Positions 22,855 to 41,997 of a stretch of DNA of 64,000 nt are shown here, piece by piece. Made by a program: the position numbers and the translations under genes. A model generated the notes under the pieces. That model was not told where the DNA came from and ran no database searches. It saw only the letters and a program-made list of their open reading frames with translations. The stretch covers positions 1 to 64,000 of the forward strand of contig NZ_JACSPW010000005.1 of NCBI RefSeq assembly GCF_014836935.1, read 5' to 3'. The DNA is from Solibacillus merdavium (GTDB taxonomy: Bacteria; Bacillota; Bacilli; Bacillales_A; Planococcaceae). The number at the start of each line of letters is the position of its first letter. Position 1 is the first letter of the stretch.

Positions 22855-22880
22855 TTTAATAACAAAACCTCACAGCTTAG

Positions 22881-23060
22881 TGAGGTAGAGGTGCGGTATT
22901 TAATAGTTTTGTATGGAGTCATTGAGCTGACAGTGAAGTATAAAAGAAGGAAATATCGCCGAAGTGTTGTTTTAGCTCGATTTAACAGCGCTGGGTCTGT
23001 AATAAATAATTGCAGGACTGTCTCAATCTTCTTCCCGGATGATTGAGGTGTGCTATCTCA
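22881..23060 (+). promoter_or_regulatory. lysine riboswitch (L box) aptamer
   Basis: The conserved L-box core is visible: AGAGGTGCG after the 5' closing strand (22887-22895), GCCGAAGTG about 80 bases later, CTGGGTCTGTAA, GGACTGTCTC and the 3' GCTATCTCA. The closing helix P1 forms between TGAGGTAG (22881-22888) and CTATCTCA (23053-23060). Size, order and motif content match the lysC-type lysine riboswitch of Bacillus. An intrinsic terminator follows 40 bases later, so control is probably premature termination when lysine is plentiful. Confidence 0.93.
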
Positions 23061-23100
23061 TATTGGGAACTGTAGAGGATTTGGGCTAATCGTGAATGTA

Positions 23101-28652: not shown

Positions 28653-28802
28653 GTATTTAACAATTGAAATGTTTGACCGAATACAATGGATTCACATATT
28701 ACAAACAGTAATCGAGTTAGTTGATCGGTGCTCTTGTAATGTGTGTTTTTTTATTTATAGGCGCATTGAAATTGTTAACTTTTATTTTCGGAGGTATTCA
28801 AT

Positions 28803-29003
28803 ATGAAACAAGGTACAGTAAAATGGTTTAATTCAGAAAAAGGTTTTGGCTTTATCGAAGTAGAAGGGGAAAATGATGTATTCGTGCATTTCTCTGCTAT
28901 TCAAGGTGACGGTTTCAAAACATTAGACGAAGGTCAACAAGTGGAATTCGACGTTGTAGATGGCAACCGCGGACCACAAGCAGAGAACGTTACAAAACTA
29001 TAA
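28803..29003 (+). CDS. cold-shock protein (CspA/CspB family)
   Basis: This 66-residue OB-fold protein carries both RNA-binding motifs: KGFGFI (RNP1) and VFVHF (RNP2). It binds single-stranded nucleic acid and acts as an RNA chaperone. Full length, ending ENVTKL as usual. The ATG follows TCGGAGG. A perfect promoter and a leader of about 140 bases lie upstream and a terminator lies just downstream. Which Bacillus paralogue (CspB, CspC or CspD) it matches cannot be decided by eye. Confidence 0.96.
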
Positions 29004-29016
29004 TCTTGAAAATCCT

Positions 29017-29048
29017 AAGCTGCGTATCATGATGCGCAGCTTTTTTTA
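29017..29048 (+). terminator. intrinsic terminator
   Basis: AAGCTGCG (29017-29024) pairs with CGCAGCTT (29035-29042), extended by the intervening near-palindrome, then a T-run. Confidence 0.88.
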
Positions 29049-36920: not shown

Positions 36921-36945
36921 AAAATGAACACGAATTAAAATAAAA

Positions 36946-36984
36946 AGCCGTTCAAACTTTACAAATAGTAAAGTTTGAACGGCT
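36946..36984 (-). terminator. terminator of msrA; copy of a dispersed hairpin
   Basis: A perfect 17-bp stem AGCCGTTCAAACTTTAC (36946-36962) pairs with 36968-36984 across a five-base loop. On the - strand it is followed by TTTTTATTTTA, so it terminates msrA. The same stem with a different loop occurs at 40521-40559. Confidence 0.85.
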
Positions 36985-37012
36985 GTTATGTCCTAGCCTT
37001 TTTAAGGTTAAG

Positions 37013-37534
37013 TTATTCTTTATCCCAGTAGTTATTTAAAAACTCATCTCGACCTGATTTTGCACGGTCTTCTTTATAAAGAGCTTCTTCTTTTTTATAA
37101 TAATCTTGGTGATGCTCTTCTGCTGGCCAGAATGCAGAAGCTTGTCTAATTTCAGTCACGATTGGCTTTTTAAATCGGCCACTTTCAGCTAATTTTTGCT
37201 TTGACTGTAATGCTGCTTCGTGCTGAACGCTATTATGTGTAAAAATTACGGATTTGTATGACTCGCCGCGATCATGGAACTGGCCTCCCGCGTCAGTAGG
37301 GTCTATTTGCATCCAATAGATTTCCAACAGTTTTTCATAGCTGAATACTTCCGGGTTAAATATGATTTGAACTGCTTCAACATGACCGGAATTACCCTGC
37401 TTTACATCTTCATATGTTGGATTTTCTACATGACCACCCATATAGCCACTTGTCACTTTTTCAATGCCATCCCATTGATCGAATGGTTTGACCATACACC
37501 AAAAACATCCACCTGCAAATGTTGCCTTTTCCAT
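37013..37534 (-). CDS. msrA: peptide methionine-S-sulfoxide reductase MsrA
   Basis: This 173-residue enzyme repairs oxidised methionine (S epimer). The catalytic motif GGCFWC is at the N-terminus (active-site Cys10), followed by [16 protein letters not shown] and the HxEAVxI/F block. It lacks a fused MsrB domain. The gene is divergent from the LCP gene 230 bases away, the same neighbourhood seen for msrA/msrR in staphylococci. ATG follows AAGGAGTG on the - strand. Confidence 0.95.
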
Positions 37535-40091: not shown

Positions 40092-40481
40092 ATGTTAAGT
40101 AAATGGTTAACAACAGTAGAAGAAAACGGCGTGAGAGTAGAAACAGTTATTGAAAAAACAGACCTTGTTGAAGGTGATGTGCTTAATGGTTCTGTTTACA
40201 TTACGCCACTTACAGATGATGAAGATGATAAAATTGACTACATTTCATTAAAAGTTCTTTGCGAACAGGCAAACGGAGAAATATCCGTTATTGGTAAACA
40301 TTCCTTTGAAGTGGTCGGCACTATTCGATCAAAAGATGCGGAAATTATGCCTTTTGAAATTATGCCAGATGAGCGTTGGGTATGTGGAGTAGATGAACGA
40401 CTTATTTTCCAGACGACTGTAATATTTTTAGATGGAACAGAAGTCGAAGAAGTTGGTTATATTTCTTATGATACTGAGTAA
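40092..40481 (+). CDS. Spo0M-like arrestin-fold protein, short
   Basis: This acidic protein is 129 residues long. Its beta-rich pattern (VRVETVIEKTDLVEGDVLNGSV and YISLKVLCEQ) resembles the N-terminal arrestin domain of sporulation-control protein Spo0M. It is about half the usual Spo0M length, so the second arrestin domain is absent. The open frame shows no disruption, and the end abuts a repeat element, which might have truncated it. ATG after GGGGGAA. Function inferred weakly from fold resemblance. Confidence 0.6.
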   Translation: MLSKWLTTVEENGVRVETVIEKTDLVEGDVLNGSVYITPLTDDEDDKIDYISLKVLCEQANGEISVIGKHSFEVVGTIRSKDAEIMPFEIMPDERWVCGVDERLIFQTTVIFLDGTEVEEVGYISYDTE

Positions 40482-40490
40482 GCATATAGA

Positions 40491-40826
40491 GGCCGGGACA
40501 AAACCCACCTCAAAATAAACAGCCGTTCAAATTTTACGATAAGTAAAGTTTGAACGGCTTTATTTTTGTATCTACTTCGTAGCCGTTGTTCTCCGTTACG
40601 GCGGACGCTTTCCTGGGGGCACGAGGCCAACACGATGTTGGTCACAAAAGCGTTGCCACAGGACGTGGCGTTTTTAGCTTTTGTTCCTTTCGCTCTCCCT
40701 CGTGCTCCTGCGATTACTCGTCGCAAAGTAAACTTTGCTTGTTCCCCTGGGAGTCGCCGCCTTCACTCCGAACAACTATTTTTCCCTCTATATCAAGTAA
40801 ATCCCTACATAATTTTTGTCCCAGCT
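40491..40826. repeat. structured repeat element, MITE-like, with inverted termini
   Basis: This is a noncoding element in the convergent gap after the Spo0M-like gene. Its ends are imperfect inverted repeats: GCCGGGACAAAA (40492-40503) and TTTTGTCCCAGC (40814-40825, one mismatch). Inside are a 17-bp hairpin (40521-40559), longer arms pairing around 40585-40605 with 40757-40777, GGGGCACGAGG (40615-40625) with CCTCGTGCTCC (40698-40708), ACAAAAGC/GCTTTTGT with inner GCCAC/GTGGC (40644-40684), and GCAAAGT/ACTTTGC. It is visibly richer in G+C than its flanks. Transcripts from either side could fold into it. Confidence 0.75.
40521..40559. terminator. hairpin within the repeat element, copy of the msrA terminator stem
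   Basis: Arms AGCCGTTCAAATTTTAC (40521-40537) and 40543-40559 pair across a five-base loop. TTTATTTTTG follows on the + strand, so it could end the Spo0M-like transcript. The stem differs from the hairpin at 36946-36984 by a single base. The loops differ. Confidence 0.75.
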
Positions 40827-40833
40827 TAATTCT

Positions 40834-41997
40834 TTAGACACGAATTGTTTTTAACTTTTCCACGGCTTTCTCAAGTAATTCGACTGGTTGTACTAATGCT
40901 AAACGCATGTATCCTTCACCTGCTGAACCAAAGACCGTGCCAGGTACCATAACAACGCCAATTTGTTCAATTGCTTTAAAGGCAAAGTCAATGCAATTTA
41001 TATCGTAAGGGTATTTTGCCCAAACGAACATTCCTCCATCACTAGGTGCAACTTCCCAGCCTAATGATGTCAAACCTTCCATCAATGTTTTATGACGCTT
41101 CGAAAAAGTCTTTCTTAATTCGTCTGTAATTTCCTCAGAGTTGTCTAACGCTAATGCTGCAACTTGTTGAATCGGTTCAAAAATACCGAAATCTAAATTG
41201 GATTTTAACTGCTTCATTATTTCAACTAATTGTGCATTACCTACAATGTAGGCAATTCGGGTACCAGCTAGGCTAAAGCTTTTTGATAAGGAATTGATTT
41301 CCAATCCAACTTCTTTTGCTCCTGGTGTTGCAAGGAAGCTAATCGGTGCATTGCCTTTGAAGTAAAACTCTGAATAGGCTGCATCATGTAATACAATGAT
41401 ATTGTATTGCTTCGCGAATTCAACAACTTCTTTAAAATATTCCAGAGATGGCATTGCAGGTACTGGATTACCTGGTAAATTCAATATTAGTAATTTTGCC
41501 TTTTGTAGAACTTCTTCAGGAACAGCTTTTAAATCGGGTAAATAATCGTTCTCTTTTGTTAAAGGCATATAGTAGGGTGTTGCACCCGCTAAATGTATCC
41601 CGGCATCATAGGCAACATAAGCTGGATTTGTTGTTAATACGACGTCTCCTGGATCACAAAAAGCAACAGGCAGATGTACCAAGCCTTCTTGAGAACCGAT
41701 TGTTTGTACTACTTCAGTTTCTGCATTTAATTCAACACCGTTTACTCGTTTATAGTAGTTACATACTGCTTCATTAAATGTTTGAATACCCGTTAATGTA
41801 TAGCCATATGAAGAAGAAAGTGCCGTAAGCTCCGACATTTTTTTGCGTAAATTTTCAGCTGGAGGGATATCTGGACTGCCTAAGCTTAAATCAATCAATT
41901 CCATCCCATTTTGCTGTTGGCTTTTTGCATGTTTTTTTAAATCCCCAAATATTGCTGGGGCAAATAAAGACATTTTTTTTGACGGTTGGATATTCAA
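40834..41997 (-). CDS. PLP-dependent class I/II aminotransferase
   Basis: This 387-residue fold-type I enzyme has its cofactor lysine in SLSKSFSLAGTRIAY and the domain anchors LSLGSPDIPP, LNLPGNPVPAM and HDAAYSEF. It would exchange amino groups between an amino acid and a keto acid. The ordering resembles aspartate/LL-DAP-type aminotransferases, but the substrate cannot be set. I chose TTG at 41997, seven bases after AAGGAG. The frame upstream of it has no ribosome binding site. Convergent with the repeat element. Confidence 0.87.
   Translation of the reverse strand: MNIQPSKKMSLFAPAIFGDLKKHAKSQQQNGMELIDLSLGSPDIPPAENLRKKMSELTALSSSYGYTLTGIQTFNEAVCNYYKRVNGVELNAETEVVQTIGSQEGLVHLPVAFCDPGDVVLTTNPAYVAYDAGIHLAGATPYYMPLTKENDYLPDLKAVPEEVLQKAKLLILNLPGNPVPAMPSLEYFKEVVEFAKQYNIIVLHDAAYSEFYFKGNAPISFLATPGAKEVGLEINSLSKSFSLAGTRIAYIVGNAQLVEIMKQLKSNLDFGIFEPIQQVAALALDNSEEITDELRKTFSKRHKTLMEGLTSLGWEVAPSDGGMFVWAKYPYDINCIDFAFKAIEQIGVVMVPGTVFGSAGEGYMRLALVQPVELLEKAVEKLKTIRV

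Follow-up and report, generated by a model that had tools for sequence, protein, structure and literature searches.

What occupies the gap between two convergent genes of Solibacillus merdavium, where inverted repeats are nested in a G+C-rich interval? An earlier note, made from the letters alone, had read the interval as a dispersed, MITE-like structure, either a non-autonomous mobile element or a folded RNA. We followed up this reading within the window (the whole stretch of 64,000 nucleotides that was analysed), in 16 genomes of the genus and in a wider search set of 31 genomes; G000 denotes the genome of the window and G005 that of a sister species. The nested repeats, the G+C-rich gap and the dispersal were all borne out, and both halves of the proposal contain some truth, since the interval has the origin of a mobile element and holds a curated RNA motif. 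What did not stand is the single MITE, in place of which we find three nested layers. We are confident that the element is a transposase-less deletion derivative of an insertion sequence (IS) of the IS1182 family, situated in place of a shared terminator and with a nested core inside. Its origin is ordinary, that of a decayed IS with known behaviour, and its build of three nested palindromic elements is unusual; the innermost layer belongs to a curated RNA family, copies of which are carried by several kinds of repeat.

Borders, repeats and composition

Comparison with intact insertion sequences placed the left border at about 40489 and the right border at 40825, the latter possibly extending to 40829 if terminal bases have eroded (Table 1). 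Most of the inverted repeats described earlier were found again as given. The imperfect 12-base termini (40492-40503 with 40814-40825) are complementary at 11 of 12 positions, the 17-bp hairpin could be located at 40521-40559, and within 40644-40684 the claimed stem pairs 40644-40651 with 40677-40684. The stem reported as 40615-40625 with 40698-40708 is real but its left arm was one base off (actually 40616-40626), and GCAAAGT/ACTTTGC is present at 40723-40738 and paired in the fold but does not appear in the output of the inverted-repeat search. That search detected an extra stem, 40585-40604 with 40757-40776, that had been missed.

Table 1. Features of the element, with positions in the window and the basis of each assignment
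Feature	Position	Strand	Basis
Whole element, probable transposase-less IS1182-family derivative	40489-40825 (right border possibly 40829)	+	Inverted repeats; comparison with intact ISs
Left terminal inverted repeat, GAGGCCGGGACAAAA	40489-40503	+	Repeat pairing; comparison with intact ISs
Terminator-like hairpin, 17 pairs, loop of 5, then T-rich stretch 40560-40569	40521-40559	+	Terminator scan; covariation in 17 copies
Palindromic core, left arm	40584-40623	+	Absent from 1,822-bp relatives
Bacillaceae-1 RNA motif, RF01690	40627-40693	-	76.6 bits; gathering score 35
33-nt hairpin of long-form cores, lacking in short ones	40706-40738	+	Comparison of copies
Palindromic core, right arm	40736-40776	+	Inverted repeats; comparison of copies
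Remaining IS leader, between core and transposase in intact copies	40777-40809	+	Comparison with intact ISs
TAATT at the deletion junction; the intact IS also has TAATT immediately ahead of its right end	40810-40814	+	
Right terminal inverted repeat, TTTTGTCCCAGC	40814-40825	+	Repeat pairing; comparison with intact ISs

RNA folding of 40491-40826 gave z-scores of -9.1 on the plus strand and -7.0 on the minus strand, with none of 100 shuffles as good on either. The G+C content is 47.3% in the element versus 35.6% in the window, where only 0.3% of 336-nt windows are equally rich. As had been noted, there is no open reading frame with a good ribosome binding site: within 20 bases upstream, each of three overlapping frames of 83-87 amino acids agrees with AGGAGG at no more than three of six positions. 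The terminator scan predicted an intrinsic terminator at the left hairpin, a stable stem (-26.8 kcal/mol, z -8.8) followed by a T run on the plus strand, and no site on the minus strand of the element. In 17 copies of this hairpin, drawn from seven genomes, standard pairs make up 96.6% of pair cells, and both sides have changed in 9 of 19 pairs, a value reached in none of 500 shuffles; compensatory changes of the kind that the earlier note had looked to are therefore seen in this stem.

Far from being a single copy, the element has matches throughout its own genome (40 blastn pieces) and in at least 18 of the 31 genomes, comprising all 16 of the genus and two others of the family. These dispersed copies already refute a plain intergenic terminator region whose repeats arose by chance. 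A terminator is indeed expected between convergent genes, but the fold z-scores and the covariation also argue against chance, and we give this explanation virtually no weight.

An IS1182-family insertion sequence as the probable source

In G001, G006 and G007 the left end, hairpin and core directly precede a transposase gene of the IS1182 family, and the intact IS of about 1,984 bp is found in three sister species. Most of the copies measured are 1,982-1,985 bp long and one is 1,997 bp. Their transposase contains DDE and DUF772 domains and reaches 441.6 bits against NF033551 (cut-off 270); transposases of the family that exceed the cut-off occur in 6 of the 16 genus genomes. The transposase with matching termini that the earlier note had envisaged thus exists in relatives, behind an identical left end, and the ends are conserved, the same ones being found in the intact copies. 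At their right end the intact ISs carry another hairpin, flanked by A- and T-rich stretches. The left-end pattern also occurs in named genomes of Psychrobacillus, Sporosarcina and Ureibacillus. A plasmid search returned three partial matches to the left end and a phage search no match. On the Cytobacillus pseudoceanisediminis plasmid NZ_CP097350.1 the same left end precedes a gene annotated as IS1182 family transposase. This plasmid IS (1,822 bp, by eye) shares the left end and the hairpin with the window element, but unlike it has neither the palindromic core nor Bacillaceae-1.

The window element lacks everything between the IS leader and the right end. As its own transposase gene is missing, it is classed as a derivative and not as an IS. 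The position of the junction suggests that the transposase was lost by an internal deletion at or near TAATT, a motif present in both the leader and the right end. Some observations count against derivation from an IS. The genome of the window (an assembly of 56 contigs) holds four transposase fragments, none over the cut-off, a search of the G005 assembly found no transposase of this IS at all, and the window copy is not bordered by clean A- and T-tracts as younger insertions are. With only fragments in one genome and none in the other, the IS looks dead in both element-bearing species, as far as the assemblies show.

A different account of the missing gene is that the element is a MITE proper, one of a short family with these ends that is moved in trans by the IS transposase. 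It shares with MITEs its shortness (337 bp), both inverted ends of an autonomous IS and the lack of a transposase, and the sister species have many short elements of 243-297 bp whose ends resemble its own. However, among the matches listed, its internal junction does not recur at a second locus: G000 and G005 have it at this locus alone, and the other transposase-less copies of this IS in the two genomes have different junctions; they look like separate decaying copies. These data therefore lend no support to spread as a MITE of its own, and we consider a MITE proper improbable. The short elements, which do look like proper MITEs, have the ends GAGG(T/C)TGGGACA and TGTCCC(A/G)(C/G)CCTC and contain a terminator-like hairpin and a core with or without Bacillaceae-1 (L130, L143, L131, L211 and, in the genome of the window, C54:117819-118050). 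Several dozen places in G001, G004, G006 and G008 span nearly a whole short element (by eye, among the matches listed).

A second relic in the window, at 36937-37000, lies directly behind the stop of an msrA-like gene (37013-37534) and consists of a hairpin of the same kind and, after it, TTATGTCCTAGCC, which is a decayed right end. The window also contains a lysine riboswitch (22878-23063, 110.3 bits) and a leader resembling the cspA thermoregulator (28667-29045, 79.1 bits, cut-off 78).

Terminator-like stem-loops as the target

To define the target of the IS, we set 10 insertions against the corresponding sites of related genomes; six further copies of the 16 fetched (L175, L176, L180, L184, L187 and L188) were outside this comparison. 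Two insertions (L177 and L190) had no usable unoccupied relative. At all eight informative insertions, the unoccupied site in relatives is a terminator-like stem-loop at the position of the IS, with both borders mapped in six cases and one border in two (L183 and L179). An example is the site that reads AAGAAAA-GCTCCCGAAATTTCCGGGAGC-TTTTTTATT in G012 versus AATAAAA-IS-TTTTTTATT in G006. The relatives G008 and G004 bear other elements at tested sites, and the short element L211 occupies a stem-loop site in G004. Three IS copies (L175, L188 and L190) apparently lie inside the terminator-like hairpin of another short element, and hairpin-bearing elements thus seem to become targets themselves.

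At the window locus, the element is present only in G000 and G005 among the 16 genus genomes. All 14 others have a terminator-like stem-loop in the orthologous gap (by eye), and in 10 of these both neighbouring genes are the same as at the window locus. The gap in two of the 10, G002 and G015, additionally holds a Bacillaceae-1 copy of another type. Judging from these 14 gaps, we infer that a stem-loop was replaced at the window locus as well: an IS1182-family IS would have inserted between the stop codons of the two convergent genes before the window species and G005 split, taking the place of the shared terminator without target duplication, as found for relatives of the IS. No target-site duplication, which the earlier note had proposed to look for, is expected here, since an IS of this type is substituted for a stem-loop.

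Replacement of stem-loops is not new, since it has been published for IS1272 and TnSha1 of staphylococci, which passages of two reports describe as replacing hairpins, among them several terminators, with no duplication of the target (PMC4923244, PMC5678879). As these elements are described, relatives of the window element have the transposase family (IS1182) and the hairpin replacement in common with them. They differ in that their hosts are of the Planococcaceae type, the window copy has no transposase, and the IS studied here carries terminator-like hairpins at both ends together with a passenger core that contains an RNA motif. With a hairpin at its left and another at its right end, this IS removes one terminator-like stem-loop and brings others, which are predicted to terminate transcription. 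The hairpin that remains in the window element probably ends transcription of the plus-strand gene instead of the lost terminator.

A second IS of the IS1182 family in the genus (1,723-1,724 bp, with other ends and a frame of 459-460 amino acids) has a whole stem-loop on both sides in three of the four copies read (L097 in G007, L098 in G004 and L099 in G001, not L107), and the L098 site is a single stem-loop in four relatives. One genus therefore holds an IS that removes the stem-loop and another that duplicates it, outcomes that Wan and co-authors, in a passage of their report, treat as branches of one model (PMC5678879). In the genome of the window, pieces of the transposase of this second IS lie at contig ends (C11:2-409 and C13:2-409) and adjoin stem-loops.

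The nested core and the Bacillaceae-1 motif

The 1,822-bp ISs with similar ends (L192, L193 and the Cytobacillus IS) lack the core palindrome, indicating that the 1,984-bp form carries it as a passenger. Two other IS1182-type elements (L097-L099 with L107, and L102) have similar cores in their leaders, and such cores are also found elsewhere without an IS. The core would have settled in the IS leader at an earlier time, before the transposase was lost.

The apex of the window core contains Bacillaceae-1 and the 33-nt hairpin, whereas the ortholog in G005 has a short apex with neither of them. By segment, the shell of the window element agrees with that of this ortholog at 89/93, 39/40, 39/40 and 44/50 positions, and for the two outer segments (89/93 and 44/50) the ortholog is the closest to the window of eight sequences compared. 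The window apex agrees at 105-106 of 112 positions with long-form copies elsewhere in G005, which has three at other loci (L155, L156 and L157). The core arms are alike in the copies compared (left 39-40/40, right 36-40/40), and such near identity would serve gene conversion. Given arms this similar in dispersed copies, such conversion by a long-form copy appears to be the likeliest way in which the window copy gained its apex. Alternatively, the long apex with Bacillaceae-1 may be older at this locus and have been lost from G005, where the three long forms show that such copies were at hand. We regard this order of events as quite possible, though not the one to be favoured: the short apex is found in the intact ISs read in this clade and in many other copies, and loss would need an exact restoration of the short apex.

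The motif itself scores over twofold above its gathering score. Hits are found in 16 of 16 genus genomes, from 3 to 107 in each (150 candidates scored per genome), and in a sample of the class the motif is present in 67 of 299 genomes and 32 of 119 genera (16 candidates scored per genome). Within the genus, its copies lie in at least four unlike repeat contexts; in the genome of the window, one copy interrupts another, different hairpin (L037). Of 221 hits, 204 remained after 17 gapped ones were dropped and 180 after repeats of the same context were dropped, and 40 of the 180 were excluded from the count of gene directions (flanks shorter than 700 bases, or one side lacking a usable reading frame). 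While 38 copies are located between convergent and 13 between divergent genes, those with tandem flanking genes have the Rfam strand in sense in 72 of 89 cases, which include orthologous loci and so are not independent. In Bacillus subtilis, eight such structures are reported in a section of PMC8208703. We found no link of Bacillaceae-1 with repeats or mobility in the literature searched, including sections of PMC2864571, PMC8208703 and PMC9029176.

Although Rfam lists Bacillaceae-1 as an sRNA gene, at this locus the motif forms one of the layers of a mobile repeat. Could the locus nevertheless be first of all a small-RNA gene on the minus strand, with the surrounding repeats as its parts? The strength of the Rfam match, the sense orientation at tandem genes and the pairing, 93.9% Watson-Crick despite much variation among 163 distinct copies, speak for this. 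However, the G005 ortholog lacks the motif and keeps the remainder, shell copies without the motif are common, and no promoter-like site was found in 40400-40900. Moreover, G-U is rarer than A-C on the Rfam strand (36 versus 66 in the 163 distinct copies), and with related copies collapsed the count of 32 versus 46 (one-sided P 0.07) leans, if anything, against that strand. A small-RNA gene as the primary identity of the locus is thus very improbable. For the deletion derivative that we favour, Bacillaceae-1 would lie in the 3' untranslated region of the aminotransferase gene, to which the motif is sense, if transcription extends there.

Bacillaceae-1 also occurs in tandem, with three copies in a row in G010 (L138 1377-1567) and pairs in G003 (C1:1183889 with 1183991, and C1:1504080 with 1504181). 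Two candidate explanations were rejected. An origin of the second Bacillaceae-1 repeat type as a TnpB guide RNA is at odds with the occurrence of PF07282 in two of eight genomes and the absence of tnpB from G002, G009 and G015, which have 43-63 matches each to this repeat type. A CsrA-type site, read as GGA in the loops of the opposite strand after the CsrA consensus, is found in about half of the 163 distinct copies for the first loop and in about 24 for the second.

What is new here is the nesting of layers and the portable character of Bacillaceae-1, and not the mobile element as such. Our tentative and still doubtful proposal is that Bacillaceae-1, instead of being an ordinary small-RNA gene, may be a portable hairpin module, one that enters the palindrome apex of unrelated mobile repeats or is swapped in there. 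As the host repeats settle at terminators, many genes would come to have such a module in their 3' untranslated regions, with one orientation preferred. Overall, the analysis describes stem-loop replacement outside the staphylococci by an IS1182-type element that bears terminator-like hairpins itself, and it connects mobile repeats with an Rfam family whose function is unknown. A natural test is offered by the window locus, where one of two sister species has the motif and the other lacks it, and a portable module, if true, would give rise to a scattered set of transcripts with one common RNA tag.
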